64,000 bases of DNA from the IMG/VR virus record IMGVR_UViG_3300032073_000004, positions 54,831-118,830 of that record; one strand, written 5' to 3'. Within the stretch, counting starts at the first letter, position 1. Each line of letters begins with the position of its first letter. Both the position numbers and the translations under genes were made by a program. Source of the DNA: a virus. Of this stretch, positions 10,477-33,183 are shown piece after piece. The notes beneath the pieces are model-generated. The model made no database searches and was not told the DNA's origin. It worked only from the letters and a program-made list of their open reading frames with translations.

Positions 10477-10785
10477 TTACTCCTCTTCAGAAAAAAAAGT
10501 TTCTGAGTTTATGTTTTTATCATCAATAAAAATATCGTAATGAGGTTTCCACATCTTCAGCTCATGATGCTTGGCTCCCCATTCTGATAACTGTTTGTGA
10601 GTTAGTTCTGTCCAGTCTATTCCTGTGTTAGAACCTCTCGCTGTCCAATAAACGACCGTATGACCTTCGTCGTACAGCTTGTTTATCTTTTCAATTCTCT
10701 CCATCCACGGTACCGCATTGTCATACTTTCCCTGTGTGTTGCAACATATCGTACCATCAATATCTACATAATATATTTTTTTCAT
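10477..10785 (-). CDS. HAD-superfamily phosphatase-like protein
   Basis: The protein has 102 residues and carries HAD motifs in order: D-I-D-G-T-I-C near residue 8 (nucleophile and acid/base Asp), T-A-R-G-S near residue 48, and W-K-P-H-Y-D-I-F-I-D-D-K near residue 80 (Lys and metal-binding Asp pair). It lacks a large cap domain. Such minimal HADs occur in capsule and LPS loci as sugar-phosphate or acylneuraminate 9-phosphate phosphatases. It is ATGA-coupled to the aldolase-like gene before it, so it belongs to the glycan operon. Substrate is inference. Confidence 0.82.
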   Translation of the reverse strand: MKKIYYVDIDGTICCNTQGKYDNAVPWMERIEKINKLYDEGHTVVYWTARGSNTGIDWTELTHKQLSEWGAKHHELKMWKPHYDIFIDDKNINSETFFSEEE

Positions 10786-11549
10786 GTTCTCTCCCCGATC
10801 TTCTTTACCCTGTCCATAAAAGACTCTGCCTTTAGAGAGTGAAAGTGTTCTCTTTTGGCCAAAAGCATCTGTTCGTATTCGATTGCTTGTTTGATTGCAT
10901 CATCTATAGACACTCCACTCACCATATCAAAGACTACTGCCCTTGTTTCAAAGCCATCCAAGAGGCCTTTTTCGTGCATCTCTTCTAGGCGGGGAGCACT
11001 TTTCTTGGAGACAGAGCCTCCCATTTTTGTTTTTAGGTTATACTTTTTTGCTGCTGTCAGTGCTTTCTCTGCGTATACCATGACCAAGTAATCATCAACA
11101 TTGTTTTTTGATAAGCCAAGAGAGCGCGATAAGTCAGAACGTCCCACTACAATGCCGTCTATGCTTTTGTGGTGTTCTTTAAGTATGTCCTCTATCTTCT
11201 CACATGCTGTCTTTGTCTCGATGTTAATAAACTGTTGTGGCGGCGTGACTTTCAGCAAATCACATCTACTTTCCATGGAAGATATAAATTTAGAAACTGC
11301 AAATTCACTTTCCACCATTGGTGCGACCACGCCTGCCACGCCGAGCCTTAAACACTTCTCAATGTCCCTGTTTGCTTCGCATCCACCTATCTTAACGAAG
11401 ACCTGTAAATCTGGTGTGCCAGCAAGCATAACCAGATCTGTTAAGTCAGAGTCTGTTACTCCCTCGTCCTCGAAAGAGGCTTTCAGAGCTGAAGCTCCGT
11501 ACTTCTCTTTCATTAGTGTTATCTTTTGTTTAATCTTATCATTGAACAT
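10782..11549 (-). CDS. HpcH/HpaI aldolase-like enzyme
   Basis: The 255-residue protein starts at the ATG at 11549, which overlaps the cytidylyltransferase gene by 11 bases; an upstream in-frame start is less likely. Family marks are V-K-I-G-G-C-E-A-N-R-D, the glycine turn G-V-A-G-V-V-A-P-M-V-E-S, I-N-I-E-T-K-T-A (metal-binding Glu), and G-I-V-V-G-R-S-D-L-S. Members cleave or form C-C bonds with pyruvate or PEP-type substrates on a TIM barrel. In a sugar-acid cluster it could make or cleave a keto-sugar acid or supply a modifying group. The real substrate is unknown. Confidence 0.8.
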   Translation of the reverse strand: MFNDKIKQKITLMKEKYGASALKASFEDEGVTDSDLTDLVMLAGTPDLQVFVKIGGCEANRDIEKCLRLGVAGVVAPMVESEFAVSKFISSMESRCDLLKVTPPQQFINIETKTACEKIEDILKEHHKSIDGIVVGRSDLSRSLGLSKNNVDDYLVMVYAEKALTAAKKYNLKTKMGGSVSKKSAPRLEEMHEKGLLDGFETRAVVFDMVSGVSIDDAIKQAIEYEQMLLAKREHFHSLKAESFMDRVKKIGERT

Positions 11550-12213
11550 TTTTAAACTCACTCTCGTAGATATATTCAGCAAACTTAAAGTCTAAGGCAG
11601 TGTCTATATCCATTGCCTCTATTTCATCCAATATTAAGAATGCTGGTTTTTTACCTACGATGTTCTTATTTTCCATTATTAAATCTCTGGGACAGATACA
11701 AACGCCATAGGTAATTTTATAAATATTTGGCAACTCTTGGCTATTAGGGGAATTACTCGGGTCATAGTTTAGTGGTTTGCCTCCAAGCCACATGTGATGC
11801 TTCATTGTAGACACGGTTGCAACAGAGTCAATACCATGTCCTACCTGAAATGCTCTTTTTGCCTTTTCTAGAGTCTCTTTGTTTATAAAAGGACTTGTTG
11901 GAGGACAATAGGCTATTGCGCCCTCGGACACAATTGTAGTTAAATTACAAAAAAAATCACTAGCAGAACAATAGTCGCTAGCATAATATTCCTCCCTCTT
12001 ATGGGAGCTTATGCCATGTCTTTCTGCAAACTTCAAAATGTCATCCGAGTCCGTAGAGAGTATTATCTCATCAAAAACTTCCGCTTCCTTGAGAGACTCA
12101 ATCTTTAGATCCAGCAATGTAGTGTCGCCAAAAGGTCGAACACTCTTGTTGGGCACTCTCTTAGAGCCTGAGCGCACTGGTATTATAGCTGTTATCTTGC
12201 TGGAGCTTCTCAT
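11539..12213 (-). CDS. neuA: CMP-nonulosonate (acylneuraminate) cytidylyltransferase
   Basis: The protein has 224 residues. The N-terminal nucleotide-binding signature is clear: I-I-P-V-R-S-G-S-K-R-V-P-N-K-S at residues 10-24, matching the A-R-x-G-S-K-x-x-x-x-K-N block of CMP-sialate and CMP-KDO synthetases. Near the end, E-A-M-D-I-D-T-A-L-D-F matches the conserved metal-binding Asp block (D-I-D-x-x-x-D). The reaction is CTP plus nonulosonate giving CMP-nonulosonate and PPi. Of the three cytidylyltransferase-like proteins here, this is closest to standard NeuA/PseF/LegF. Which sugar it uses cannot be told from sequence alone. Confidence 0.88.
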   Translation of the reverse strand: MRSSSKITAIIPVRSGSKRVPNKSVRPFGDTTLLDLKIESLKEAEVFDEIILSTDSDDILKFAERHGISSHKREEYYASDYCSASDFFCNLTTIVSEGAIAYCPPTSPFINKETLEKAKRAFQVGHGIDSVATVSTMKHHMWLGGKPLNYDPSNSPNSQELPNIYKITYGVCICPRDLIMENKNIVGKKPAFLILDEIEAMDIDTALDFKFAEYIYESEFKNVQ

Positions 12214-12908
12214 AAGTTTGTTGCCCTATAAATGAAGTCCAAGTATTTGAATTGCCACTCATGATCTATGTCCAGAGACTCTCTTTCAGATATAGGGAAC
12301 AGTTCGATATCTCCCTGCTCGGAAAAGTCTCCCATAAAAACGCCGTCGCCGATGGTGGCCATTTCGCTAGCATACAGACAATGAGCTGCTTCGTATGTGG
12401 CTTCAACCGCCTTTGTATTTAAGTTTGGTTCTCCCTCGGGCCACTCGTTCAACATTTTCCCACTCTCGTTCCAAAAGTAGTTCTTCTTCTCTATGACCGC
12501 GAACAAGCCCTTGCTTGGTGTTTGCAAATAGTGTTCGTAAAAGCTATCTATGGTGGATGTCTCCAAAAATGGATTGCAGGCGTTGACAAGTATGATATAC
12601 TTATAAGATAGTTTATCCCACCACTCATACATGCCCGTTAACTTAGATCCGGTTCCGCCGTCCCATACTGCAGAGTGTTCGCTCCTCTTGAATATATTGA
12701 CTCCATTTTTTACCCCGACATCTACAAGTTCAGGCTCATTAACGGATAAATAAAAGTTTTCTTTTGGGATAGCTTTGGAATCCAATATCTTCTTGACTGC
12801 GATATCAACCAAATTGGTTCCGCCAAAATCTCTTATCATTTTCCTTTTGCATCTTTCCGAAGAAAGTCTTGCTTGAATTATCACACATACTTCTGATGGT
12901 TTTTTCAT
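12210..12908 (-). CDS. SpsF-like cytidylyltransferase, paralogue 1
   Basis: This 232-residue protein starts at the ATG at 12908, ten bases after a GGGAG. It begins with I-I-Q-A-R-L-S-S-E-R-C and ends with S-L-D-I-D-H-E-W-Q-F, both marks of the cytidylyltransferase superfamily. It shares dense blocks with the gene at 17634-18320 (E-K-K-N-Y-F-W, E-A-A-H-C-L-Y-A, M-G-D-x-x-x-Q-G-D), so the two are duplicates. The usual G-S-K is changed to S-S-E-R-C-K-R-K-M, as in SpsF-like proteins of polysaccharide loci. It probably activates a sugar acid with CTP, but a different nucleotide or substrate cannot be excluded. Confidence 0.82.
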   Translation of the reverse strand: MKKPSEVCVIIQARLSSERCKRKMIRDFGGTNLVDIAVKKILDSKAIPKENFYLSVNEPELVDVGVKNGVNIFKRSEHSAVWDGGTGSKLTGMYEWWDKLSYKYIILVNACNPFLETSTIDSFYEHYLQTPSKGLFAVIEKKNYFWNESGKMLNEWPEGEPNLNTKAVEATYEAAHCLYASEMATIGDGVFMGDFSEQGDIELFPISERESLDIDHEWQFKYLDFIYRATNL

Positions 12909-13256
12909 TTAATCTCCCTTTTCGACCCTATAGCTGTCCTCGTCAAAATGAGTAGTAGAAAACTCATACATCTCTGTGTCCTCTAGCGCGATCATTCTGT
13001 GAATAAGGCCAGTGGGGACATGGAAGTTGTCTCCCTTTTCTAAAATGACTTCAGATGCAGTGCTAATATCCTCATCATAAGAATATAATACTCTCAGCTT
13101 CCCGCTATGGATATAGAAAACTTCATCTTTAATTTTATGGTAATGCCAAGAACACTTTTTTCCTTTTACAAAAAACAAAAGCTTACCGCAGTATTTATCG
13201 TTATTGACAATCCATTTTTCATAACCCCAACCTTTGGGGACAAAATTCATTTCCAT
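12909..13256 (-). CDS. Cupin-domain protein, sugar-isomerase-like
   Basis: The protein has 115 residues. A single cupin barrel is visible: C-S-W-H-Y-H-K-I-K-D-E-V-F-Y-I-H-S-G (metal-binding His-His-Glu near residues 38-45) and H-V-P-T-G-L-I-H-R-M (second-motif His near residue 85). It resembles the C-terminal cupin of mannose-6-phosphate isomerase or GDP-mannose pyrophosphorylase. GGAG precedes the ATG by six bases. In this cluster it could isomerise a sugar or act as a keto-sugar modifying enzyme. Confidence 0.8.
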   Translation of the reverse strand: MEMNFVPKGWGYEKWIVNNDKYCGKLLFFVKGKKCSWHYHKIKDEVFYIHSGKLRVLYSYDEDISTASEVILEKGDNFHVPTGLIHRMIALEDTEMYEFSTTHFDEDSYRVEKGD

Positions 13257-14249
13257 TTACAACTCCAGAGGAAAAAACCTTTTTGAGATCTCTTTGCTCA
13301 TATTATTATCGTAGTTTTCTCCAATATTTTGATATTTTATCATTCTATTATTATAAGTTAAGAGATAATCCCAAAACAAAACTGCTTCTCTTCTTTGAAA
13401 ATCAAAGTTATAGTTTGCGCTTATCTTCAACTTCTTGTTTGGCTCGAATGCGTGAGCGCCTGCATTAATGTTTTCTATCTGCTCTTGTGTCCAGCCATCC
13501 CATCCAGCAAATATAACCTTTTTAGCTCCCAAATATGTCGCTAATGTTATCAGCTTTGGAACAGCTCCCGATGTCAATGATACCCTCTGGTTAAAGAGGA
13601 AGCACTTGCACATCTCGTCATAAAATGTCTGGATCATCGACGGGCTTCTAGATATAGAGGTATCTATGGCGCAGATAGTGTCGTCTCTCTCTACAACGTC
13701 TGCGAACTCTGGTATGTTCATATCAAGCTCTGAGTTAATGTAGCATAGAGATATTTCTCTTTCTTTCAGTTCCTTGTTTTTGTAGAATGCGTTACAAGTC
13801 CACAAGTAATCTCTTTCTACGTTATCGTAGTCAATCTGAAGTGCGGATGGTCCTCCGCCGACGATAAGTATTGTGCTGTCTCTGTACTTCTTCAGTTCTT
13901 CTAAATTTTCACACCACATGTCGCCAGTTCTAGTGACGCTCTTTTGGGGGTGTGTTAAGAACGAACGATAAGGTTCCGGTGGCGGGTATCCATGTTTTGC
14001 ATTTAAAAGAAAGTCTTCTTTTGTTGTTAGCATACTTGCTTCATTAGCGGGATACTTTGAAACTATATTGCTATAAGTTTCATCCGGGCCAAAGCACCTT
14101 TTGCTTATTTTATCATACCACACATTGTACTCTGGCTCTCTGGCTATTCTTTTCCTAAATTCAGAGTATGCACCTTGCCACTCGCTTTCAACAAAAAGTT
14201 TATCTTCTCTAGAATTGTATATCTGAATACAGTTGTCTATTTCTAACAA
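13257..14249 (-). CDS. MptE/Maf-like (DUF115) putative nonulosonate transferase
   Basis: The protein has 330 residues with a TTG start. The core begins near residue 127 with I-L-I-V-G-G-G-P-S-A-L (glycine-rich nucleotide loop), then T-C-N-A-F-Y-K-N. Near residue 240 it has A-T-Y-L-G-A-K-K-V-I-F-A-G-W-D-G. This is the fold shared by MptE-like pyrophosphokinases and Campylobacter Maf proteins, which move legionaminic or pseudaminic acid to flagellin. It lies between the carbamoyltransferase and the cupin. A glycosyltransferase role using CMP-nonulosonate is inferred from family and context. Confidence 0.72.
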   Translation of the reverse strand: MLEIDNCIQIYNSREDKLFVESEWQGAYSEFRKRIAREPEYNVWYDKISKRCFGPDETYSNIVSKYPANEASMLTTKEDFLLNAKHGYPPPEPYRSFLTHPQKSVTRTGDMWCENLEELKKYRDSTILIVGGGPSALQIDYDNVERDYLWTCNAFYKNKELKEREISLCYINSELDMNIPEFADVVERDDTICAIDTSISRSPSMIQTFYDEMCKCFLFNQRVSLTSGAVPKLITLATYLGAKKVIFAGWDGWTQEQIENINAGAHAFEPNKKLKISANYNFDFQRREAVLFWDYLLTYNNRMIKYQNIGENYDNNMSKEISKRFFPLEL

Positions 14250-14259
14250 AGCAGGCTCT

Positions 14260-15918
14260 CTATTTCTCTATGATATATTTTCCAACGACCAAGACATCAA
14301 TGTTTGTACTCATAAAGCATTTGTACGCATCTTCACAGTCGTTTACAATAGGTTGCCCCTTCACGTTAAATGAAGTATTAAGCAAAATGGGGTATCCAGT
14401 TTGCTTGTTGAAAGTCTCTATCAAGGTTCTATATCTCGGGTTAAGTGAGTGGACAGTCTGTACCCTAGCAGAATTGTCAACATGAATAACTGCACCGATG
14501 TCCTCGACTTTATCCTCTCGACATTGGACTGCCCTTAGCATATGAGGGCTATCATATCTTATCTCAAACCATTCTCTTGCTTCCTCTGCCAAGACAGAGG
14601 GCGCGAAGGGCCGAAAAGCTTCTCTAAATTTAACACGGGCGTTTACATGATCTTTTATCGCAGAGGGAAATGGCTTTGCCAAAATACTTCTATTGCCTAA
14701 AGCTCTTGGCCCAAACTCAGCGCCACCTTGCACCCACCCTATTATTTTTCCTTCTTCTAACCTCTGGGAAACCAGTGAGAAAGCTTCATCTGCTTCCACA
14801 TAGGTTATTTCCTCTCTGTCTAGAAAAGATTTTATTTCTTCGTCTGTTTGACGGTGGCCAAGAAAGAAATCGTGATACTTCCCGATCTCTACTTTGCCTC
14901 TTCTGGACAAACTCAAATAGGCTGCTCCGATGGAAGTTCCATTGTCTCCGGATGCAGGAGGTACGAAGATCTCATCGAAAATGTTCTTGCTTTCTATCTT
15001 GCCGTTAAGAGAGCAGTTCAAGCCAACCCCGCCTGAAATGCACAGTTTGTCCACTTCGTACTCTTTTCGTAACAGTGTCAGTTGCTCTAGAACAATCTCT
15101 TCTAGTCTGTCTTGCAGTGCTGCAGCAATGTTCTTATGGTTGTCTGTTATTTCGTCTTCCCACTTTTTAAGTGGACCAAACATAGAGATAAACTCGTCAC
15201 TAACAAATTTGTCTCTCTCTTTGTGAAAAGAAAACCATTTTTTATTTATTTCGATGTCGTATCCATTTACATTGACCATCTCCCTAAAGACATCAATATA
15301 TCTCTTATCTGTATTTGGAATAGTTTCTCTGCTGTTTCCTAATGGAGCAAGGCCCATGACAATTCCCTCGTCACACATTGGTTTCCATCCAAGATAAAAT
15401 GTTATAGCAGAGTAAAAAAGACCCAATGAGTTGGGCCATGGGTTCCCCTTGTGTATTACTTTTATCTCTCCATTGACGGCCATGGCCATCATGGAGCAGT
15501 GGGTTTCTCCAATGCCATCGTTGCTATATAGGAGAGCAGTATCAAAGCCGCTTGGATAATAAGAACTTGCCACATGACACAAGTGATGGTGATTAAAATC
15601 AACGTCACCGTCATATCCAATTTGCTCTTTTAGTATTCTTACATACTCTTTTTCTGAAGGGAGATCCCTTCTCATTTTTCTTACCTGCCCAGAGGCTTTA
15701 AGAAGAATGGAAGGCTTGTAGGAAAAGCTAACAACATCTATATCGGAAATTTCCAAAGAGGCAATCTTCAAACAATCATTAATTGCATTCTTTGGAAAGT
15801 CTCTTGTGTGCTTATCCCCACAGTACCTCTCCTCTTCGCAGGCGGCCACGAGTTTGCCGTTCTTTAAAAGAGCTGCAGATGTGTCGTGGCCACCATAATT
15901 AATTCCTAAAATATTCAT
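14260..15918 (-). CDS. NodU/CmcH-family O-carbamoyltransferase
   Basis: The protein has 552 residues, full length for the family. The N-terminal Kae1-like half has G-I-N-Y-G-G-H-D-T-S-A near residue 5 and F-N-H-H-H-L-C-H-V-A-S-S-Y near residue 108 (metal-binding histidines). The C-terminal half has W-V-Q-G-G-A-E-F-G-P-R-A-L-G-N-R-S-I near residue 395 and N-T-S-F-N near residue 515, both diagnostic. These enzymes move a carbamoyl group from carbamoyl phosphate, through carbamoyl-adenylate, to a sugar hydroxyl, as in Nod factors. Here it probably decorates the sugar made by this cluster. AAGG precedes the ATG. Confidence 0.92.
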   Translation of the reverse strand: MNILGINYGGHDTSAALLKNGKLVAACEEERYCGDKHTRDFPKNAINDCLKIASLEISDIDVVSFSYKPSILLKASGQVRKMRRDLPSEKEYVRILKEQIGYDGDVDFNHHHLCHVASSYYPSGFDTALLYSNDGIGETHCSMMAMAVNGEIKVIHKGNPWPNSLGLFYSAITFYLGWKPMCDEGIVMGLAPLGNSRETIPNTDKRYIDVFREMVNVNGYDIEINKKWFSFHKERDKFVSDEFISMFGPLKKWEDEITDNHKNIAAALQDRLEEIVLEQLTLLRKEYEVDKLCISGGVGLNCSLNGKIESKNIFDEIFVPPASGDNGTSIGAAYLSLSRRGKVEIGKYHDFFLGHRQTDEEIKSFLDREEITYVEADEAFSLVSQRLEEGKIIGWVQGGAEFGPRALGNRSILAKPFPSAIKDHVNARVKFREAFRPFAPSVLAEEAREWFEIRYDSPHMLRAVQCREDKVEDIGAVIHVDNSARVQTVHSLNPRYRTLIETFNKQTGYPILLNTSFNVKGQPIVNDCEDAYKCFMSTNIDVLVVGKYIIEK

Positions 15919-15928
15919 GTTTACCTTT

Positions 15929-16810
15929 TTACACTACCATAACATTAGGGGTAAAGTATCTAAGTTTGTTTGCGACCTCAACTTCGTGCTTTAAGAAGTG
16001 TTTCTGGCCAGTGCCAAGGGTGTTTACGACTTGTCTGGAAACATCTACCAACTCTTTAAGTTCGCCCTCCTCAATAGAGGCAGATTGGTCCGAACCATAC
16101 ATGCTTCTGTCCAGCGTGATGTGCCGCTCTAATGCTTTAGCGCCATAGGCGACTGCCAAGATAGACGGAAATATTCCTTGTTCGTGACCGCTGTATCCCA
16201 CAGGGACGTTGTACTTTTCTGCAAGAGTTTTAACTGCCAAAATATTGCAGTCTTCATTTTTGCAAGGGTAGGTAGAAACACAGTGAAGCAAAGTAAACTC
16301 GCACTCATGTGAGTTAAAGATCATCATTGCTTTCTCGATGTCAGAAGAATTGCACATCCCTGTCGAGATAAACGTGTGCTTTTTCTCTGAAGCTATCTCA
16401 TTTAAAAGTTCTTCGTATGTCAACATGGCCGAGGCCACTTTGTTAAAAGACACATCGTATTGTCTCAAGAAGTGTTGGCTCTTTATGTCCCATGCCGATG
16501 CAGTCCATAAGATACCTTTTTCTTTACAATATTCAGAGATCTGATCATACTCTTCTTTTCCGAATTCTAAGCCTTCTTTTTGATCTCTCTGTGTAGTCCC
16601 CCAGGGAGACTGTCTACTGGATTTTAAATATTCCTGTGTGTAAACAGTATCAATATCTCTTTTCTGAAACTTGACTGCTTGGCATCCCGAACGTACTGCC
16701 GCATCTATCAACTTCTTTGCAACCTCAATATCACCATTGTGGTTGATGCCGATCTCGGCAATAAAAAATGGATTATTGACTGTCTTTTCATATGGATTAA
16801 ATTTGCTCAT
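15929..16810 (-). CDS. neuB: NeuB-family sialate synthase without SAF domain
   Basis: The protein has 293 residues, and the start has AAGGA upstream. NeuB barrel motifs are complete: A-E-I-G-I-N-H-N-G-D near residue 18, V-K-F-Q-K-R, S-A-W-D, I-S-T-G-M near residue 147, H-C-V-S-T-Y-P, G-Y-S-G-H-E and E-R-H-I-T-L-D near residue 233. The reaction is PEP plus an N-acyl hexosamine giving a nine-carbon nonulosonate. The C-terminal antifreeze-like SAF domain that normally closes the partner active site is missing; the protein ends soon after the barrel. It differs clearly from the second synthase at 19090-20091 and may take a different precursor. Confidence 0.9.
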   Translation of the reverse strand: MSKFNPYEKTVNNPFFIAEIGINHNGDIEVAKKLIDAAVRSGCQAVKFQKRDIDTVYTQEYLKSSRQSPWGTTQRDQKEGLEFGKEEYDQISEYCKEKGILWTASAWDIKSQHFLRQYDVSFNKVASAMLTYEELLNEIASEKKHTFISTGMCNSSDIEKAMMIFNSHECEFTLLHCVSTYPCKNEDCNILAVKTLAEKYNVPVGYSGHEQGIFPSILAVAYGAKALERHITLDRSMYGSDQSASIEEGELKELVDVSRQVVNTLGTGQKHFLKHEVEVANKLRYFTPNVMVV

Positions 16811-16824
16811 TCTTATTTTTCCTT

Positions 16825-17637
16825 TTATAATTCTTTAAACGGAAGAACCCTGTTTAAATATGACATATTGTCGGGTGCACTTGTGTAAATGTTCATCCCA
16901 TGCAACTCCTTCCATTGTAACCACTTTTTCAAAATATTTAAAGGTATTTCCAAACTTTTTTCCATTTCGCCATTTTGAGACTCATCTGACCAAGGGTGCC
17001 TGTCGTCGTCGTTATAAAATCTAGGGCCAAACATATCAAAACCTAATATGCAAATCTCCTTTGCGCCCAGTGCATAGCAGATGGGAAAGACAGCACTACT
17101 AAGCTTGTTTTCAAGTCCCCACTTGTATTGTAAGCCGATAACAGATTCGCTATCAAATTCTATAGAACCCACTATAGTTTCAGGGTGCATAAATCTGTAA
17201 TATGCGCCTTCTGTAAAGATATCTTCTTCTGGAAAACTCTTAGAGTTGTTTTTAATATATTTTGTAGTAGTACACTTCACTTCCTCTATATTATATTTTT
17301 CCGAAACTTTCTCTATGAGTTCCTCAAACATTTTCCACCCTCCTGGAATTCTCATTAGAGGTGTAGTGCCGCAGTATCTTCTGTATTCGGGAAACCCTTG
17401 TTTGAAGAATGATGGTATAATGATTCTCATGTCGGAGAATTCTTGTGTTTCGTTTTTCAACAAATATTCAAAACCCTCCACATAAGCAAACGGGTCTGCA
17501 CTAAACCATATATCCGGAACGATACCTAGTCTTTCGTGACAGTGGGGAAAGGTTCTTTGGAAGGCCATTATTTTTTCCCCGTCTTTTTTCTTTGCCAGTT
17601 TTGTACTAAGGCCTGGTCCTATCACTAATATGTTCAT
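16825..17637 (-). CDS. Putative sialyltransferase/MptE-like protein
   Basis: The protein has 270 residues. It starts with N-I-L-V-I-G-P-G, and near residue 190 carries A-L-G-A-K-E-I-C-I-L-G-F-D-M-F-G, the block seen in MptE/Maf proteins and in GT42 sialyltransferases such as Cst. A Trp-rich region and a short C-terminus follow. It is ATGA-coupled to the CMP-sugar synthetase paralogue at 17634, which suits an enzyme that consumes the CMP-sugar. Family is a weak call; the similarity is confined to the C-terminal block and the overall layout. Confidence 0.6.
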   Translation of the reverse strand: MNILVIGPGLSTKLAKKKDGEKIMAFQRTFPHCHERLGIVPDIWFSADPFAYVEGFEYLLKNETQEFSDMRIIIPSFFKQGFPEYRRYCGTTPLMRIPGGWKMFEELIEKVSEKYNIEEVKCTTTKYIKNNSKSFPEEDIFTEGAYYRFMHPETIVGSIEFDSESVIGLQYKWGLENKLSSAVFPICYALGAKEICILGFDMFGPRFYNDDDRHPWSDESQNGEMEKSLEIPLNILKKWLQWKELHGMNIYTSAPDNMSYLNRVLPFKEL

Positions 17638-18320: not shown

Positions 18321-19090
18321 GTCTCTCCTCCTGCATCGTTTTCCGACAGTTCTTCCAATAGTTCATTTACAATTCTGTCGCACTCTTTTATATCTTTGAA
18401 GATCTCTCTTGCTCTGTCTGGTGCTAGCTCGAAACACAACCTGACTGCATCCATCCAGTTTACGTTGTTTCTCTCTCTTATCTTCTGCACGTCGTCAATT
18501 ATATCTTTATCTGTTCTTTCCTTCAGAAAACCGTCTATAGAGGAAACCTGAGTGTTCCAGCCATCTTTCTCTAACAAATGCATGTGTGGTTCTTTGTGCT
18601 TCATTCTATGGGTATTACCCTCGCTGATATCTTGTTTCATTCTTTTATATTTTCTTTTCTTTATGTAATACCATTTTTCAATAAACAAATTAATAAGATT
18701 ATCATTAAGTTTCTGATAGGAGGAAGACAGTGTATCACTTTTATTAAAAGACACTTCTCTTTGAAAAATTACATCCCCAGTGTCAACGCCTGCATCGACA
18801 TGGTGGATAGTCACCCCTTTTGGGGTTCCCTCAAGAAAGCTCCACAAGTTAGGGTCAGAACCCCTGTTCCAAGGCAACATAGAGATATGAAGGTTGATAA
18901 TATTATCCCCAGACTCATCAATTATATTTTGCTTTATGATGTGCCTATATCTGTAACTTATGCATAGTTCTATGTTATTTTCAGTAATGAACCCTGGCTC
19001 TATCTTTTCTGAGGTGTAAACAACTTCGTTGCCTTCTTCTAAAAAGTCTTTCAGTTCGTATGGCTCTACTCCAAGATACAAAATTTTCAT
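18317..19090 (-). CDS. Sugar N-formyltransferase (Fmt-like fold)
   Basis: The protein has 257 residues. The formyltransferase core is clear: I-N-L-H-I-S-M-L-P-W-N-R-G-S-D-P near residues 65-80 (catalytic Asn66 and His68) and H-V-D-A-G-V-D-T-G-D-V near 97-107 (catalytic Asp). This core uses N10-formyl-tetrahydrofolate. The tRNA-binding domain of true Fmt is absent. Instead there is a short helical C-terminal domain, N-V-N-W-M-D-A-V-R-L-C-F-E-L-A-P-D-R-A, of a type I associate with LPS-gene proteins. The likely role is formylating the amino group made by the neighbouring aminotransferase. Confidence 0.87.
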   Translation of the reverse strand: MKILYLGVEPYELKDFLEEGNEVVYTSEKIEPGFITENNIELCISYRYRHIIKQNIIDESGDNIINLHISMLPWNRGSDPNLWSFLEGTPKGVTIHHVDAGVDTGDVIFQREVSFNKSDTLSSSYQKLNDNLINLFIEKWYYIKKRKYKRMKQDISEGNTHRMKHKEPHMHLLEKDGWNTQVSSIDGFLKERTDKDIIDDVQKIRERNNVNWMDAVRLCFELAPDRAREIFKDIKECDRIVNELLEELSENDAGGET

Positions 19091-20091
19091 TATCCCAGAT
19101 CCTCTCTTCTGATTACGGTTCCCGGTGCTATATCTCTGAGTGTCTTACTTCCGATGATCTCCCTATAGGAGCTAGCAGGAACAGCCCCTTCAAGAAATGG
19201 GCGACTTGTGGTTATATTTTCCTGTGTAAGTTCTTGACCTTTTTTTATTTCTTCTTTGGAAATAACAGAACGTCTTGCCATTTTAAAATCTTTTTCTGAG
19301 TCGGTATATTCCGACTTCTTTCTTTTCAGAGAAAGTTCTGCCAAGGAAATCTCTTCGTTCATCTTCTTTAAATCATTCGGCTCCATAGCAAACGGATGAT
19401 CAGGGCCTGGTAGTTTATTAGAAATTGTAAAGTGCTTTTCTATTGTTGTTGCCCCTACCATAACTGCTAAGGCAGGAGTTATGGTGCTCATTGTATGATC
19501 AGACAAACCCACCTTCACTCCCTGTTTACCATACTTTTCTAGTATGTCCTTTACCATCAACAGGTTTATATCTTCCTGGGGTGTTGGATATGCATTGTTA
19601 CAATGGAGAATTGTTATGTCGTAGTTGCTTTGCTTATGACATGTGTCTATTATTTCTTGAATAAAGTCTATGTGACAGCCTATACCTGCAGATATAATAA
19701 GCGGCAATTTTGTTGCTGCCACCATTTCAACAAAGCGCAAGTCTGTTGATTCAAAGCCAGCAATCTTCATCCTCTTTACGCCAACATCGCAAAGTTGCTG
19801 AATGGCTTCTTCGTCAAATGGTGTTGCCATAAACTCTATGTTCTTTTTATCACAATATTCTTTTATTTTAGGAACCCACTCTCTCGGCAGCTCAAGCGTT
19901 TTCATGAGGGCGTTTATGTCCCCATAGCCTGCAAAGTTTGGTGTGTTTTCTGCATATAAAGTTTTTGAAGAAAATATTTGAAACTTTACTGCTTGTGCGC
20001 CAGACTCTTTGGCCACGTCCACAAGAGCATATGCCTGTTCGAGACTCTTATTGTGATTTGAGCCTGCTTCTGCGATAACAAAAGTATTCAT
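19090..20091 (-). CDS. neuB: NeuB/LegI/PseI-type nonulosonate synthase with SAF domain
   Basis: The 333-residue protein has the full two-domain layout. Barrel motifs are A-E-A-G-S-N-H-N near residue 7, V-K-F-Q, T-P-F-D, I-S-A-G, L-H-C-N-N-A-Y-P-T-P, G-L-S-D-H-T and E-K-H-F-T, then G-P-D-H-P-F-A. The C-terminal SAF domain begins around residue 271 with R-R-S-V-I-S-K-E-E-I-K-K-G; its Arg normally reaches into the partner active site. The E-K-H-F-T and G-P-D-H variants are more like legionaminate or pseudaminate synthases than classical NeuB. It sits directly after the aminotransferase and dehydratase in transcription order, as expected. Confidence 0.92.
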   Translation of the reverse strand: MNTFVIAEAGSNHNKSLEQAYALVDVAKESGAQAVKFQIFSSKTLYAENTPNFAGYGDINALMKTLELPREWVPKIKEYCDKKNIEFMATPFDEEAIQQLCDVGVKRMKIAGFESTDLRFVEMVAATKLPLIISAGIGCHIDFIQEIIDTCHKQSNYDITILHCNNAYPTPQEDINLLMVKDILEKYGKQGVKVGLSDHTMSTITPALAVMVGATTIEKHFTISNKLPGPDHPFAMEPNDLKKMNEEISLAELSLKRKKSEYTDSEKDFKMARRSVISKEEIKKGQELTQENITTSRPFLEGAVPASSYREIIGSKTLRDIAPGTVIRREDLG

Positions 20092-21092
20092 AGTACAGAT
20101 ATTATATATTCAATCTGCTCTTTTGTTAAGTTATGGTGTATGGGGAAGTTCACTATCTTTGGATGAACTTTCTCTGCATTGATCAATATTGTTCTCTGCT
20201 TCATCGCCGTCGTCTTGTGGAGAAGTGGGTACAACCTAGATGTGTTAAGTTTTTTCATTATATCTTCTGAGTTCTCTCTCAGTGCTGAACCGATGTAGTA
20301 AGAAGAATTTGGAGAATGCTGAACCAAGGGTTTATCCACCATTTCGGAAATATACTCGTAGTTTTCTTTTCTCCTCTCGCGGAGTTCTTCATATACTCTC
20401 ATACTTTCCAGGCCAAAGGTTGCATTCAAGTTGTTCATATAAAACTTAAAGCCATTCATAACTATGTCGTAGGTATTTCCAGCATTTTTTCTACCAAAGT
20501 TTCTAAAAGAACGAAAATACTCAGAGGCGGAATCGTGGTTTGTGGAAATCATCCCTCCGTCGGATGTGCATATCGGCTTCATTGGATGAAAGGAAAAGAA
20601 CGAAAAGTCACACTCTAAACTTGGTGTAACGCAGTGGGCAGAGTCTACAACAACTATTTCATCACCCACCAGGTTCCATCCCTTTATGTTATCAACTCCA
20701 CCGTATAATACAGGCATGACAACCTTGGGGTTGACTGAGTTTGTGTTTCTTCTCTTTATTCTATAATCTTTACAGTCGAACTGTAGCTCTTTTGTTATGT
20801 CCACATAGTGAACTGTGTGTCCGACGTGTTTAGCTGCCCAAGCAGGAGATATAAATCCCAGGGTTGTGGTGTAGACCTCGCAGGGACCATACTGTTCATA
20901 GAGGTAATAAAAGATCATGAAGGCGGCTGCACTAGCAGAGTTAGTGGCTATATTGTTTTTCTTTTGCGAGAAGCTCTTAAACTTGTTCTCAAACTCAACA
21001 ACATTGGGGCCAAAGCCCAAGTTTCCACTCTCGATGGTCTTTGATATTTTATCGTAACTATCTCTGAGGAAAAATGGTTCGTATATCTTCAT
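20088..21092 (-). CDS. DegT/DnrJ/EryC1 PLP sugar aminotransferase
   Basis: The protein has 334 residues. The PLP lysine is K172 in F-S-F-H-P-M-K-P-I-C-T-S-D-G-G, and the cofactor Asp is D150 in V-V-V-D-S-A-H. Family members aminate 4-keto-6-deoxy nucleotide sugars with glutamate. It is ATGA-coupled to the PseB-like dehydratase before it and to the NeuB gene after it, which matches the PseB-PseC-PseI or LegB-LegC-LegI order. It is slightly shorter than typical PseC (about 380 aa). Confidence 0.9.
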   Translation of the reverse strand: MKIYEPFFLRDSYDKISKTIESGNLGFGPNVVEFENKFKSFSQKKNNIATNSASAAAFMIFYYLYEQYGPCEVYTTTLGFISPAWAAKHVGHTVHYVDITKELQFDCKDYRIKRRNTNSVNPKVVMPVLYGGVDNIKGWNLVGDEIVVVDSAHCVTPSLECDFSFFSFHPMKPICTSDGGMISTNHDSASEYFRSFRNFGRKNAGNTYDIVMNGFKFYMNNLNATFGLESMRVYEELRERRKENYEYISEMVDKPLVQHSPNSSYYIGSALRENSEDIMKKLNTSRLYPLLHKTTAMKQRTILINAEKVHPKIVNFPIHHNLTKEQIEYIISVL

Positions 21093-22078
21093 TAGCTGCT
21101 CTCTTTGGTTCCCCTAGAGATAAGTTCCAGCAGAACATTAACATCGTCGCTCATGTGAAGAGATGAATTGAATTCAGTTCCTTCATATTTCTTCCACTTG
21201 GCCCTGTTCGTTCTTTTCGTATATTGTGGTCTAACACAAAGAAGGTTTAGGTTTGCCACTTCGTAAGTAAACGGCAGTTCTGTTTCCGCCAACATATCTT
21301 CGTGAAGCTTTTCTCCTGGTCTTAGTCCTACTATTTCCTTCTCGAAAGAAGAACCATGAAGTTTTTCGATTGCCTTCAGGATAGTTTCCATTCCATATGA
21401 TTTAATCTTCGGAATAAAGACCTCGCCACCTTCACTAGCCTCGACTGCGTTCAGGACCGTATCTACGGCATCCTCAAGCGTAAACAAGAACCTACTCATA
21501 TCCAGAGAGGTAACTTTTATTTTCTCGTTAGAAGCGAGCAGAGAGAGCCACAGGGGTATAAATGAACCACGGCTAGCTATAACATTACCATACCGGACAG
21601 AAGAGAACACAGTTTCCGTGGAATGATAGTCATAATTGGTAAAGAAACGCTCTGCAATAAATTTAGAAGAACCATATACATTAACCGGAAGACATGCTTT
21701 GTCGGTGGATACAAGAACACACTTCTTTATATCATTTAAAAGTGCGGCTTTTGCAACATTCTCAGAACCAAGTACATTGGTATTGACACATTCATCTGGG
21801 TGGAATTCCATATCGTCTATTCTCTTTAATGCAGCAGTGTGGATGATAAGGTCTGGTTTTGTTCTTTTTAGGGTAACATTAAATTTGTCAAAGTCTCTAA
21901 TATCCCCGATAACACAGTGAACCGAGCTACCGCCATAAATTAATGCTTGCTTTCCCTCATCCCTAGAAAAGATGATGATCTGGTTTCCTTGTTTTACCAG
22001 CCTTTTTGTCAGTGCTTTTCCTAGTGAGCCTGTCCCCCCTGTTATTAGGATCTTTTTTCCCGTTATGTTTTTGTGCAT
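21092..22078 (-). CDS. pseB: PseB/CapD-like UDP-GlcNAc 4,6-dehydratase
   Basis: The protein has 328 residues, the normal PseB length. The Rossmann loop G-G-T-G-S-L-G is at 14-20, S-T-D-K-A at 124-128 and the catalytic Y135-G-S-S-K139 follows; R-Y-G-N-V and G-L-R-P-G-E-K-L-H-E are also present. The expected reaction converts UDP-GlcNAc to a UDP-4-keto-6-deoxy sugar, the first step of pseudaminic or bacillosamine/legionaminic routes. The D-K-A form of the triad is typical of the soluble inverting PseB group. It starts the enzymatic series dehydratase, aminotransferase, synthase. Confidence 0.9.
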   Translation of the reverse strand: MHKNITGKKILITGGTGSLGKALTKRLVKQGNQIIIFSRDEGKQALIYGGSSVHCVIGDIRDFDKFNVTLKRTKPDLIIHTAALKRIDDMEFHPDECVNTNVLGSENVAKAALLNDIKKCVLVSTDKACLPVNVYGSSKFIAERFFTNYDYHSTETVFSSVRYGNVIASRGSFIPLWLSLLASNEKIKVTSLDMSRFLFTLEDAVDTVLNAVEASEGGEVFIPKIKSYGMETILKAIEKLHGSSFEKEIVGLRPGEKLHEDMLAETELPFTYEVANLNLLCVRPQYTKRTNRAKWKKYEGTEFNSSLHMSDDVNVLLELISRGTKESS

Positions 22079-24081
22079 TATATCTTTACTCTCTCGATGT
22101 CTTCACTAGCTTGGTTGATATCTGAACATATTTTTAAGGTGCATCCTTTTTCGCTTAACCATTTTGACCACTTGCCAATTGCCTCAACGGAGATGCGCTC
22201 CTCTTCTTTGAGTTTTTCCATAGGCACGATGGACATGGTATCATTTTCTTGAATAAAATCTTTTTTATCAAAAGATGTTCCGCTTTTAGTGTAGAAGTGT
22301 TGCTTCTCTTTATCAGCGCCGATAAGTCTGTTATCATAACCCACTGTTACTATCTCAGATAGACCTAAGTGTTCAACAAGGTAAATGACTGCTTCTGTCA
22401 TAATGCCGGGACCATATGGCCGTAGAACCTTTTGCTTTTCAAGAGTCCAATCTTCATATTCGTCAGTTGATGCCAGAGAATTTGCAAAGTCCCTCTCTTT
22501 GATAAAGAATTTCAAATCGCATTGCCCCAATCTATAAGGGGTAGATGAAGCCTCCATAACAAGAGGATGCTTTTTATTATAGTCATAGTGTTTGAAGTTG
22601 GCACAATTATAAACGTGAAAGTCTACAAACTCACCATACAAGTCATAAGCTTGCTTTACTGATATGCAAATGTTTTCTTCAAGCAGTTTTTTTAACTTTT
22701 CTTGATCGTTGTCCAACAGAGTTGGTCCACAAGAAACAATATATGCCTTTTCTCCCTTTAGAGAATCTTTTAAGAATCTCAACTTCTCGTTCTGAGAAGG
22801 GATTTCTCTACATTTTTCTACTATAAAATCTGCTTTCTTTTTTCCCTCTAGCTTATCAGCCTCTTCTCTTAAAGCAGGAATAGGATCGACGTACTCCACA
22901 TGGCCCATCGCATCCATAAACTGTGCCATTACTTTATCTGGGCTATGTTTTTCGAGCAATATTTTTTGAAGCTTGTTTGCTTGACTCTTTAGTCTAGTAT
23001 GCTCCTTGGCCATCTCTTCTATTCTCTGCTGAAATGATACCTTCTTTGGAAAGCACCACGATGCATAAGGCTCTATAACACCTTTCCAGTGTGCCTCTTT
23101 TTGTACTCTTCCCATCTCAAATTGAACATTTGAAAAATATTTCTTTTTCTTTTTCTTTCCTTTTTCTTCCTGCGTTAAGAAGTCCATCTGTCCAGACCAG
23201 CCTGGGGCTATCACCGGAAGGCCATGATAGGCTGCTTCAAATAAAGGAAGCCCATATCCCTCGCCATGGGCCAGGCTGACCATTGCTTTCACTTTATCGT
23301 GTTGCAACAAAGATGACATCTCTTCCTCTGTCATCCTTCCATGCAGAAGGTGCACTTTGCACTTTCTAGTTGGATATTTATTCAATATAGATGAGATCTT
23401 GTGTTTCGTATGCATGAGGTCTAACTCTGAATTTCCTGCCATGCCGGTCTTTAAGATAAGGCCCACATCTTCTCTATCATGAAACTTCTCAATAAACCAC
23501 ATTATGGTGTTTTCAACGTTCTTTCTTACGCCCATAAGGGCGACGAGCAGAAAGTTAAAGTCAGAGGAAAAGTCTATATCAAGCTTCTTTTCTGAGATCT
23601 CTTTTACTGGGTATCCGACAACATCCACAGGAGTATTTAACGCTAGTTGAGCTCCGCCGCCTGCATCAAGCGAAGTGTCCAAGAGTCCACTTTTAGCATG
23701 TTCTGATACAACAATTACCTTATTCATCAAATTGCACTTCTGAATCCACTCTGGTGAGATCTGGTCGCATTCAATTCCTGCAGTGCATCCGATATTATAA
23801 TTTGCCACCTCATTATTGAACTCATTCGGGATAGTCACTTGCAAGGATATGTCGAACGCCTGATCTGCTGGTGGTTTGGTTGTCAGTTTGTCGGCCAACT
23901 CTGTCATCCATCGGCCTTCGTCTGTATCTGGAAACTCCCATGAGGTTTGGCCCCAGTTTAAAGGATGAAGATAAATATCATAAGTATTCTCGTGTTCTCG
24001 AAGTGATCTAAGAACAAAGCGACAATGCTCTCCGTAACCTGATGCGCTAAATGCTGGCCCTATTACGATTACTGTTTTCAT
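22078..24081 (-). CDS. GT4-like glycosyltransferase fused to MptE/Maf-like domain
   Basis: The protein has 667 residues. The ATG at 24081 is preferred because it forms an ATGA overlap with the upstream gene. Residues 1-400 are a GT-B glycosyltransferase: it opens with V-I-V-I-G-P-A-F-S-A-S-G-Y-G and carries E-G-Y-G-L-P-L-F-E-A-A near residue 285 (the EX7E donor motif). From about residue 455 a second domain begins with A-Y-I-V-S-C-G-P-T-L-L and contains L-S-E-I-V-T-V-G-Y-D-N, the MptE/DUF115 pattern. One polypeptide may therefore handle a nucleotide hexose and a CMP-nonulosonate in turn. The fusion is visible; the acceptor is unknown. Confidence 0.82.
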   Translation of the reverse strand: MKTVIVIGPAFSASGYGEHCRFVLRSLREHENTYDIYLHPLNWGQTSWEFPDTDEGRWMTELADKLTTKPPADQAFDISLQVTIPNEFNNEVANYNIGCTAGIECDQISPEWIQKCNLMNKVIVVSEHAKSGLLDTSLDAGGGAQLALNTPVDVVGYPVKEISEKKLDIDFSSDFNFLLVALMGVRKNVENTIMWFIEKFHDREDVGLILKTGMAGNSELDLMHTKHKISSILNKYPTRKCKVHLLHGRMTEEEMSSLLQHDKVKAMVSLAHGEGYGLPLFEAAYHGLPVIAPGWSGQMDFLTQEEKGKKKKKKYFSNVQFEMGRVQKEAHWKGVIEPYASWCFPKKVSFQQRIEEMAKEHTRLKSQANKLQKILLEKHSPDKVMAQFMDAMGHVEYVDPIPALREEADKLEGKKKADFIVEKCREIPSQNEKLRFLKDSLKGEKAYIVSCGPTLLDNDQEKLKKLLEENICISVKQAYDLYGEFVDFHVYNCANFKHYDYNKKHPLVMEASSTPYRLGQCDLKFFIKERDFANSLASTDEYEDWTLEKQKVLRPYGPGIMTEAVIYLVEHLGLSEIVTVGYDNRLIGADKEKQHFYTKSGTSFDKKDFIQENDTMSIVPMEKLKEEERISVEAIGKWSKWLSEKGCTLKICSDINQASEDIERVKI

Positions 24082-25343
24082 AGCTCTACGTGCCTCCATG
24101 TTTCATAATTTTTTCTAGTTTCCCAAGAGCCATGCTCCTCGGCGACTCGCTCAAAGATGTCTTGCCATTGTTTGTTAAAATTATCAAAGTTATAATTTTT
24201 CAAGACATGTTCTCTGCCTTTTTTGCCCATCTCTCTTCGTTCTTTTTCAGACATATTAATAAACTTCTCTAGGCATTCAATAAGGTCATCTTCGTTTATT
24301 CGGTCCTCGTAGATATATGGTATTTCTTGTGAACCAATAATTGCCTTTGAAGAAGGCTCAATACCAAAGCCAAACCATTCTTCTCCATCTGTAACTTGTT
24401 CTTGTAAGCCGCCTGTCATATTAACTATGATGGGGCGCTCAGCCGACAGACTCTCAAGAGTCGCGAGGCCGAAGCCCTCGGCGTCGCTTATGTTTATGGT
24501 ACAGTCAATGCAGTTATACAAAGTGCCCATATTTTCAGGAGGTAGTTTTTGAGTGGAGAACTTTACTTGACCTTCTGTAAGTTTTAGATATCCCAAAATT
24601 GCATCTAGGTCTTGGCCATGAACATCCTTAACATCTGTGTGCATAAGTAACATAGCTTTGTCGTGACCTACTTTATCTAGAAACTTTTTAAACCAAAAAA
24701 TCAAAGAACCACTTTGTTTTCTCCTGGCGTTTCTATTGTTCCAAAAAAATATTACTTTTTCGGAGTTATTGTTGGTTAGTTCCTGCCTCATCCTGCGAAC
24801 ATCTTCGTTGTCATCTGGGAGTCTTTTGAAGATCTCTGAGTCTACAGCGTGAGGCACCCTCTCTCTGTCTACATTTGGTGCAAGAGTCTTGACAATATCG
24901 TCAGTGACCTTACTGATCGTAGCTATAAAATCATTTGAGCGGTACCACACTGAATTGTAATCTGGGTATGGATAGTTGTCCCAGACATGATAATACAAAA
25001 GTGGACACTTAGATCTTATCTCGTCTTCCATCGACCACAGCCAACCATAAAATCTTGGGTCTGTCATGATCCAAACAAAGTCTGGCTTGTCCGTATTGAT
25101 AATGGACCTGACCATTTCTTTTGTTCCGTATCCATCTACTGGTTTTATTAGCCAGTCTTGGCCGAACTCTTCTACGCTTTGTAGACGATAGTCAATGTGT
25201 TTTATAGCTCCGGCCAAGGAAAGTATTTTATATTTTCCTGTCCTAAGCAGAGCTTCACAAACGTACTTTGTTTGTGTTCCGACGCCACTTGGTGAAAGAG
25301 GGTGGTCGGAAATTGTTAAAATAGTTTTTTTCTTTTCGGACAT
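24078..25343 (-). CDS. GT4-like glycosyltransferase
   Basis: The protein has 421 residues. The N-terminus has I-S-D-H-P-L-S-P-S-G-V-G-T-Q, like acceptor-side loops of GT-B enzymes. Near residue 285 the donor motif A-E-G-F-G-L-A-T-L-E-S-L appears, and a C-terminal helix N-Y-N-F-D-N-F follows. It lacks a membrane segment. It is the most upstream glycan gene and is ATGA-coupled to the GT/MptE fusion, so the two probably build one structure. Sugar and acceptor are unknown. Confidence 0.85.
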   Translation of the reverse strand: MSEKKKTILTISDHPLSPSGVGTQTKYVCEALLRTGKYKILSLAGAIKHIDYRLQSVEEFGQDWLIKPVDGYGTKEMVRSIINTDKPDFVWIMTDPRFYGWLWSMEDEIRSKCPLLYYHVWDNYPYPDYNSVWYRSNDFIATISKVTDDIVKTLAPNVDRERVPHAVDSEIFKRLPDDNEDVRRMRQELTNNNSEKVIFFWNNRNARRKQSGSLIFWFKKFLDKVGHDKAMLLMHTDVKDVHGQDLDAILGYLKLTEGQVKFSTQKLPPENMGTLYNCIDCTINISDAEGFGLATLESLSAERPIIVNMTGGLQEQVTDGEEWFGFGIEPSSKAIIGSQEIPYIYEDRINEDDLIECLEKFINMSEKERREMGKKGREHVLKNYNFDNFNKQWQDIFERVAEEHGSWETRKNYETWRHVEL

Positions 25344-26138: not shown

Positions 26139-26163
26139 ATTTACTCCTTGAGGTATTATTATA

Positions 26164-28494: not shown

Positions 28495-28510
28495 TAACAT
28501 TCCTTACACT

Positions 28511-33163: not shown

Positions 33164-33183
33164 AAGGGCCTCCAACATTGCAC

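Follow-up and report, generated by a model that had tools for sequence, protein, structure and literature searches.

The locus described here is a cluster of sugar and glycosyltransferase genes in a virus record of the IMG/VR database (IMGVR_UViG_3300032073_000004). We analysed the right-hand 64,000 bases of this 118,830-base record, and this whole stretch is called the window in what follows; a near-identical longer copy of the record reaches 158,153 bases. Judged by its genes, the source is a large tailed phage: the record or its longer copy encodes a portal (phrog_213), a T4-type terminase (phrog_2), a baseplate wedge and SbcCD, and also DNA polymerase, DnaB, ribonucleotide reductase and GroEL. 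The nearest named-phage relative of the terminase is that of Flavobacterium phage immuto (47% identity). Contamination by host chromosome was rejected, since the record itself also carries structural and replication genes and the genes that frame the cluster recur in other contigs. The cluster occupies positions 10477-25343 and comprises 16 contiguous open reading frames (ORFs), all on the minus strand, as are all features of the window given below with no other strand. A first-pass annotation of the bare sequence had reported an unbroken minus-strand run of about 15 genes; the run stands, but the count is 16. It had also placed ATGA or TAATG at most junctions, which applies to just over half, as 8 of the 15 overlap by 1 or 4 bases, two abut and three are gaps of 10-14 bases. 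The remaining two overlap by 22 and 44 bases, the start having probably been called too early. A single operon, as already suggested there, is a fair reading of this arrangement.

Families were assigned with Pfam and NCBIfam, several of the NCBIfam best models scoring below their own strict cut-offs, and PADLOC gave zero matches for five cluster proteins. Searches with hidden Markov models (HMMs) recovered nearly all the families named at first pass: the dehydratase, the DegT aminotransferase, the formyltransferase, two NeuB proteins, three cytidylyltransferases (CTs), the carbamoyltransferase, the cupin, the aldolase and two family-4 glycosyltransferases (GT4). The genes for PseB, DegT, the PseJ-like protein, NeuB and a CT are present in a row. 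The first of them (21092..22078) encodes a PseB-like UDP-N-acetylglucosamine 4,6-dehydratase (Polysacc_synt_2, 6e-78; FlaA1 2gn4, E 1.2e-59), for which PseB is the best NCBIfam model (1.4e-78, under its cut-off). The following gene, for a DegT/PseC-like aminotransferase (20088..21092; Pfam 4.9e-41), has PseC as its best NCBIfam model (4.4e-30), with 105 bits against a cut-off of 424. NeuB1 (19090..20091) is predicted to be a full-length nonulosonic-acid synthase with a C-terminal SAF domain (NeuB 4.4e-69 and SAF 2.2e-11, both above cut-off), and its structural relatives are SpsE (2.6e-50) and PseI (1.2e-46). Next comes a PseJ-like sugar N-formyltransferase (18317..19090; formyltransferase 1e-17), whose best PDB match over residues 2-187 is PseJ 6ci2 (E 8.3e-50), the N-formyltransferase of a pseudaminic-acid pathway. 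The row ends with CT1, a divergent CT (17634..18320; CTP_transf_3 3e-8).

A check of catalytic residues, proposed with the first-pass annotation, supported these assignments. The STDKA and YGSSK catalytic motifs of the dehydratase align with FlaA1, the lysine of FSFHPMK is present in the DegT protein, and the NLH and D motifs of the formyltransferase align with PseJ 6ci2. In NeuB1, 12 of 15 chosen active-site positions are identical in both the SpsE and the PseI alignments (E8, N12, K36, Q38, K109, E114, Y168, S197, H199, H220, D231 and the SAF arginine R297), while N14, T90 and N165 are not.

The two NeuB-type synthases claimed earlier were both found, and they differ. NeuB2 (15929..16810; NeuB 6.8e-72) lacks a C-terminal SAF domain and carries Met where NeuB1 has E114; it keeps E8, N12, N14, K36, Q38, K109, Y168, S197, H199, H220 and D231, and T90, E114 and N165 are changed. 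The substitution at position 114 is conserved: among 34 NeuB genes in the 61 viral intervals compared below, Met is found in 19, Leu in 3 and His in 1, which makes 23 with NeuB2 included. Of these, 22 have 0-7 residues past position 275 and one, in contig G037, has 117. In all 23 the position of R297 is without an aligned residue, and the metal histidines are kept. We also observed longer NeuB-like proteins of 487-499 residues at L239:13077-14540, L199:5210-6679, L238:5023-6522 and L230:14594-16066. Their C-terminal stretch has a length of about 220 residues, D231 is replaced by Asn, and the arginine of R297 is missing.

Further genes of the run encode an O-carbamoyltransferase of the GdmN/TobZ type (14260..15918; Pfam 3e-68; GdmN 6e-88, TobZ 1.8e-79), a WbuC-like sugar-modifying cupin protein (12909..13256; Cupin_2 3.4e-10; WbuC 5.5e-6, under cut-off) and two other CTs. 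CT2 (12210..12908; CTP_transf_3 2.4e-12; PseF 7e-10, under cut-off) shares 50% identity with CT1, both being more divergent than CT3, of the NeuA/PseF type (11539..12213; CTP_transf_3 2.4e-16; PseF 2e-26, under cut-off; PpNeuA 9.6e-14). An HpcH/HpaI-type aldolase (10782..11582; 8.3e-12) overlaps CT3 by 44 bases and its true start is probably further in. At the end of the run lies a putative small HAD-type phosphatase (10477..10785), a label that turned out to be weak, its best NCBIfam model being the EcbF/BcbF capsule phosphatase (1.6e-6, under cut-off). The cluster thus shares PseB, DegT, a PseJ-like protein, NeuB and CT with the pseudaminic-acid pathway with N-formylation (PseB/PseC/PseJ/PseG/PseI/PseF), and departs from it in that PseG was not found and that there are two NeuB proteins, one of them SAF-less, and three CTs.

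At its upstream end the run begins with two fixed glycosyltransferase genes. GT4a (24078..25343; Glycos_transf_1 3.8e-10) is a family-4 glycosyltransferase with 47-63% identity to a close group of IMG/VR relatives, 38-40% to a sister group and 31% to its relative in a cultured Flavobacterium phage. GT4b (22078..24099; GT4-conflict 4.6e-7, MptE-like 3.7e-6) is predicted to consist of a GT4 part that ends near residue 400 and, from there to residue 673, a fused domain of the Maf/GT42 fold. Two further proteins, MptE1 (16825..17637) and MptE2 (13257..14249), had been grouped with this C-terminal domain at first pass as three MptE/Maf-like domains. The Pfam MptE-like matches of all three are under cut-off (E 0.0025 for MptE1, 0.0056 for MptE2 and 3.7e-6 for GT4b). 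A profile of 32 relatives that include MptE1 and MptE2 (MptE1 scores 5.9e-30 against it, being itself a member) matches the sialyltransferases CstII (2wqq, 1.8e-11), Cst-I (2.2e-10) and that of Pasteurella (2.9e-8), and MptE itself scores no better than 0.074. For MptE2, the structural model (pLDDT, the model's own confidence, 89) gives Z 12.1 with MptE (root-mean-square deviation, rmsd, 4.5; 186 residues aligned) and 12.0 with Cst-I (rmsd 3.6; 195 aligned), followed by CstII (11.8), SteA (9.8) and Maf (9.7); Foldseek gives 2.4e-5 for CstII and 4.1e-5 for MptE. Since the fold is common to MptE and the sialyltransferases, we let the sequence profile decide, and MptE1 and MptE2 are better read as GT42-like putative transferases of CMP-sugars, as candidates only. 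A literal MptE function (pterin kinase) was rejected on the profile evidence, though the fold does not decide.

The Maf-like part of that earlier claim held for GT4b. The model of its C-terminal domain (pLDDT 77) looks most like Maf (5mu5; Z 12.4, rmsd 5.6, 186 aligned), with MptE (10.3), Cst-I (10.0) and SteA (9.8) next. This domain has no PDB sequence match, is unmatched by the GT42-like profile and joins MptE1 and MptE2 by sequence only via iterated search. Maf is a cytoplasmic protein glycosyltransferase that puts nonulosonic acids on flagellin. In their predicted structures the cluster domains resemble Maf and the GT42 enzymes Cst-I and CstII in fold, and they differ from them in their low identity (10-19%) and in a near-invariant His of the HAFE motif, which aligns to a Tyr of CstII.

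To place the cluster among other viruses, we used the GT4a profile, which reached at least 598 stretches in IMG/VR, of which 80 loci were kept. From these, 57 contigs were used and 14 added from NeuB scans (71 in all); L111 (same contig as L048) and L153, L158, L159, L178 and L180 (short or over a 50-locus limit) were left out, and 17 loci at 38-40% GT4a identity were looked at apart as a sister lineage. A gp55-like late sigma factor gene, found in the window at 9028..9768 (phrog_234, 2.6e-5), is present in 61 of the 71 contigs, and the ten without it were dropped. In all 61 contigs GT4a and gp55 keep the same strand and order, 1,891-25,416 bases apart (median 14,520), and the GT4b family, whose GT4 part belongs to the fixed frame, occurs in every interval. 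On the left, a PDDEXK nuclease gene (25356..26186 in the window; PDDEXK_1 6.7e-18) is the direct upstream neighbour of GT4a in all 57 contigs that are long enough there (1,000 bases upstream required, 300-base overlap tolerated). A PhoH-like gene (27163..28500) follows within 6 kb upstream in 46 of 46 contigs that reach far enough; it was named by eye, its relatives match the HMM built from it, and one of them is annotated PhoH in phage immuto. On the right, 8 intervals were cut at 20 kb, so that their final 0.4-1.5 kb is missing; in the other 53 the FmdB-like gene (10023..10283; phrog_1076, 7.9e-5) is always found and the small protein x9701 (9701..10021), which recurs at right ends, is missing once.

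The content between these borders is highly variable. The 61 intervals hold 1,144 ORFs of at least 80 residues; 1,119 of these share the strand of the frame and group into 308 families, of which 185 have a single member. When every contig is compared with every other (1,830 pairs), the median Jaccard index of cargo is 0.07 and the median GT4b identity 45%, and the overlap of cargo hardly follows GT4b identity (Spearman 0.15). The band medians are 0.07-0.10 up to 80% GT4b identity and 0.90 for the sole pair above; the closest pairs by GT4b share 82.8% and 75.1%. The window and contig G006 (L048/L111) have a cargo index of 0.92 despite 40.6% GT4b identity. All 16 genes recur in G006 at 40-76% identity with NeuB2 alone moved, in agreement with a working-looking operon, and the frame genes are shared at 56% (PhoH), 54% (gp55), 44% (PDDEXK) and 28-35% (small right-frame proteins). 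Other cargoes include methyl-, sulfo-, pyruvyl- and formyltransferases, PIG-L, APS kinase, GT2, GT8 and GT11; these families come from 112 proteins, with 25 of 57 and 25 of 39 families listed. Two frames, L156 and L175, are almost without cargo.

In the sister lineage GT4a, GT4b and gp55 are adjacent in 17 of 17 loci with no cargo between them (GT4a to gp55, 1.36-1.54 kb), and PDDEXK is upstream in all 16 that reach that far. Because the frame is kept while the cargo differs, and because this lineage has the frame with no cargo inside it, we regard the GT4 pair as the constant element and the sugar genes as the variable one. The cluster represents a single allele of a hypervariable cassette whose place in the phage genome is fixed, one of many interchangeable cargoes; the first-pass annotation had missed this, and it emerged from the comparison of neighbourhoods in other phages. 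In six of the 17 sister loci (L161, L169, L170, L171, L173 and L181) sugar genes are located upstream of PDDEXK, outside the GT4b-gp55 interval, with up to four PseB-like genes per locus and DegT, formyltransferase, HAD and cupin genes in some. The cargo therefore switches sides between lineages.

We then asked which sugar genes travel together, both in all 61 contigs and in the 49 brought in by the GT4a scan, the other 12 being known through NeuB scans; the p values take contigs as independent, relatedness being uncorrected. NeuB is present in 24 of the 61 and in 12 of the 49, and a nonulosonate cargo is a minority of the cargoes. In the set of 49, CT genes accompany 11 of 12 NeuB-positive and 7 of 37 NeuB-negative contigs (p 1.1e-5). 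A GT42-like gene or one of GT29, a sialyltransferase family familiar mainly from eukaryotes, was found in 23 of 30 CT-positive and in none of 31 CT-negative contigs of the full set (11 of 18 against 0 of 31 in the 49, p 1e-6). GT29 occurs in 7 and GT42-like genes in 16 of the 61, never in the same contig; each of the 8 GT29 matches falls within the interval, always alongside a CT, and 14 control genomes gave none. The GT29 matches are strong in G018, G029 and G037, reach E 1e-12 in G071 and are partial in G032, G048 and G060. The HAD model, present in 32 of 61 intervals, is found in 22 of 24 NeuB-positive and 10 of 37 NeuB-negative contigs, and the association of NeuB with cupin is not significant (p 0.07).

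Taken with the enzymes above, these data make it very probable that the cluster produces unusual sialic-acid-like sugars and attaches them. In the mechanism that we propose, a short glycan would be begun by the fixed pair of GT4 glycosyltransferases, encoded close to the late sigma gene, and the cargo of this phage would cap it with nonulosonic acids. A first, pseudaminic-type route may run from the PseB dehydratase through amination by DegT, N-formylation by the PseJ-like enzyme and removal of UDP to condensation by NeuB1, after which one of the CTs would activate the product with cytidine monophosphate (CMP). Another route would use the SAF-less NeuB2 and a CT, and the HpcH aldolase, together with CT3 and the HAD phosphatase, may supply a third 2-keto acid. 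The CMP-sugars would be transferred by the three GT42/Maf-fold domains (the GT4b C-terminus, MptE1 and MptE2), the carbamoyltransferase and the cupin would modify the sugars, and exchange of the cargo would change the virion surface. The exact sugars, the pairing of enzymes, the acceptor and the benefit are what we infer here. A strict rule of one synthase, one CT and one transferase (3:3:3 here if HpcH is counted) was dropped, as other contigs deviate from it.

We give an even chance to the reading of the cluster as a cytoplasmic glycosylation locus with exchangeable cargo, for which a protein of the phage virion is the likeliest acceptor. Self-contained O-antigen or capsule synthesis requires a flippase and a polymerase. 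Only one of the 1,144 interval ORFs has three or more hydrophobic segments and 14 have two, whereas one of 8 proteins of a Moritella capsule locus, presumably the flippase, scored 11 in the same count. By this measure no flippase or polymerase is evident in the 61 intervals, and unlike a capsule or O-antigen locus of the Wzx/Wzy or ABC type the cassettes contain no recognisable polytopic flippase, polymerase or transporter, so the phage would build no O-antigen or capsule alone. The acceptors left for capping in the cytoplasm are a protein, precursors of host lipopolysaccharide, and DNA. The main rival, which we consider possible but unlikely, is modification of the host surface: host lipooligosaccharide or lipid-linked O-units would be capped in the cytoplasm, superinfection would be blocked, and the cargo would track host serotype or rival phages. 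The cargo repertoire resembles O-antigen sugars and GT42 enzymes are known lipooligosaccharide sialyltransferases; a role at the host surface is also the one proposed for similar cyanophage and pelagimyophage islands (PMC7824862, PMC7029224). Against it stand the near lack of polytopic proteins, the Maf-like appearance of the predicted GT4b C-terminal domain, Maf being a protein glycosyltransferase, and the fact that the core glycosyltransferases are kept while the cargo changes and have homologues in phages of Flavobacterium and Microcystis.

These homologues were examined in named phages. GT4a-GT4b homologues and other glycan genes adjoin PDDEXK in Flavobacterium phage immuto, a phage of Flavobacterium sp. 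LMO8; in Microcystis phage Mel-JY01 the pair, with GT4a annotated as two pieces, lies one gene from PDDEXK; and in Rhodothermus phage RM378 GT4a was found and GT4b matched only weakly. In immuto and Mel-JY01 only the left frame is common, because gp55 lies far away. Homologous pairs in Flavobacterium and Microcystis phages point to an acceptor that travels with the phage, which suggests a virion protein, our preferred inference. If the glycan were instead placed on flagellin, pilin or another host protein in the manner of Maf, with altered motility or receptor, this would agree with the nearest fold of the GT4b C-terminus and with the cytoplasmic action of Maf; since GT4a homologues span phages of Flavobacterium, Microcystis and Rhodothermus and no common host protein is evident, though none was searched for, we hold it to be improbable. 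On the same record, left of the window, L019:4867-9264 contains four tandem paralogues of about 360 residues with 19-22% Ser+Thr, near a tail-fibre-like gene. They form two pairs (71% and 65% identity within, about 30% between), the one paralogue tested has no Pfam or PHROG match, and they are possible virion surface proteins and candidate glycan acceptors.

Two other acceptors or fates were weighed against a virion protein. The glycosyltransferases could decorate modified phage bases against restriction, in line with the Pfam GT4-conflict match of GT4b; phage glycosyltransferases that glycosylate DNA are reportedly known (Pyle 2024). The thymidylate-synthase family is the source of hydroxymethylated pyrimidines, and a gene of this family was found in none of 21 records, TET-type enzymes not having been searched for. 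This makes a DNA acceptor very unlikely, and we know of no case of DNA capped with nonulosonic acids. Equally little credence can be given to a soluble product, a free secondary metabolite or nucleotide sugar with no glycoconjugate, in view of the three transferase-like domains of the cluster and the co-occurrence of CT and transferase genes; it is one of the options put forward by Iyer et al. for a carbamoyltransferase-bearing cyanophage cluster (PMC7824862).

Several results weigh against the capping of virion proteins as proposed here. PseG hydrolase was found in none of 18 records at E 0.001, some of them perhaps fragments (of 14 search controls 5 match, 2 above cut-off), which leaves removal of UDP to the host or to an unrecognised enzyme. 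The DegT protein is only weakly PseC-like by sequence, and DegT shows no link with NeuB (10 of 24 against 23 of 37, p 0.19), so that the pseudaminic route would not be general. In the set of 49 the link between GT42-like genes and NeuB is the weaker one (4 of 12 against 1 of 37, p 0.01), no sialyltransferase-type gene was recognised in 7 of the 30 contigs with a CT, the GT29 evidence is a partial match in three contigs (E 2e-9 to 5e-7, above cut-off), and the numbers of NeuB and CT genes are mismatched in other contigs. The fold of MptE2 ties with MptE, SteA too reaching Z 9.8. The T4-type late-promoter motif, TATAAATA, shows no enrichment: it occurs 6 times where 3.7 are expected, and 13 of 100 shuffles reach 6. 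The distance of gp55 from the glycosyltransferase pair in immuto and Mel-JY01 counts on the same side. So does the cytoplasmic action of GT42 enzymes such as CstII on lipooligosaccharide, owing to which host lipopolysaccharide (LPS) could be the acceptor even with no flippase.

The description of the cluster as an undescribed system was too strong. Hypervariable glycan islands of T4-like cyanomyophages and pelagimyophages, with a proposed role in changing the host surface, are already described (PMC7824862, PMC7029224), and variable sugar and glycosyltransferase genes in a conserved frame, the mark of such islands, are found here too. The 'LPS' clusters of P-SSM2 and related cyanomyophages are likewise polymorphic sugar and glycosyltransferase clusters with epimerases and cupins in a large T4-like phage, the carbamoyltransferases sitting in a second cluster (Iyer et al. 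2021, PMC7824862). The main text of that paper does not contain the words sialic, nonulosonic or NeuB, and its section on LPS clusters has no GT4 pair beside gp55. The host recognition cluster of pelagimyophages is also a hypervariable glycosyltransferase island in T4-like marine phages, and lies between VrlC and gp14 with tail fibres and a dominance of GT8 (PMC7029224). Unlike it, the frame here is PDDEXK-GT4a-GT4b on one side and FmdB-x9701-gp55 on the other, and no tail fibre is among the cargo families listed. Glycans on capsid and tail-tube proteins of mycobacteriophage virions are reported (Freeman 2023 as cited in PMC12619734), in a passage that does not mention nonulosonic acids or a hypervariable cassette, and phage enzymes that modify host pseudaminic acid are reported elsewhere (PMC12053666). 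Among the open-access matches listed, titles and opening lines of abstracts revealed no phage nonulosonic-acid operon with its own sialyltransferases and nothing on the GT4a-GT4b/gp55 frame. 'Lipopolysaccharide islands' are named in a conservative ocean virus catalogue of metabolic genes as a ground for excluding contigs (PMC11360552), and for this reason the locus may be systematically overlooked.

We tentatively propose a phage 'serotype locus', an idea that we place somewhat below an even chance: a fixed glycosyltransferase pair with swappable cassettes would paint virion proteins, here with formylated and carbamoylated nonulosonic acids, through sialyltransferases of the GT42/Maf fold or, in relatives, of GT29. 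If true, virions would have surface glycotypes that can be exchanged, much like the capsule types of bacteria, and the product of NeuB2 would be a nonulosonic acid not described before. Phages would then be shown to diversify their surface glycans in the way that bacteria diversify capsules, through exchange of cassettes at a fixed locus, and to possess nearly complete sialic-acid-like pathways together with transferases of their own. The question of virion or host can be tested directly in a cultured Flavobacterium phage that shares the left frame.

Regarding the origin of the synthases, a match to NeuB1 or NeuB2 was found in only 3 of 50,697 named phage records, one of them a bacterial capsule contig, and NeuB2 has relatives in 54 IMG/VR loci, that of the longer copy of this record included. 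The best relatives of NeuB1 in genome contigs (56-57% identity) are on contigs of Flavobacteriaceae metagenome-assembled genomes (MAGs), the next best of 31 loci having 39%. Contigs L254 and L255, binned into such MAGs, are 100% and 99.3% identical to IMG/VR contig L007, which carries a PseB-DegT-NeuB-CT set; hence virus and cell are indistinguishable for the best NeuB1 relatives, and either a virus lies inside the MAG or cell DNA lies inside the virus set. A bacterial donor of NeuB1, which was considered, is not supportable, as the nearest MAG contigs match L007, a contig classed as viral.

Other genes of the window were also noted. A trypsin-like serine protease (28568-29284, plus strand; PF13365, 2e-17) lies on the strand opposite to its large neighbours, next to a second plus-strand ORF of unrecognised family (29319-29990). 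Further on, the minus strand encodes a weak radical-SAM/lysine-aminomutase-like protein (31763-33178) and a 717-residue protein with a CTP_transf_like domain (36899-39049).

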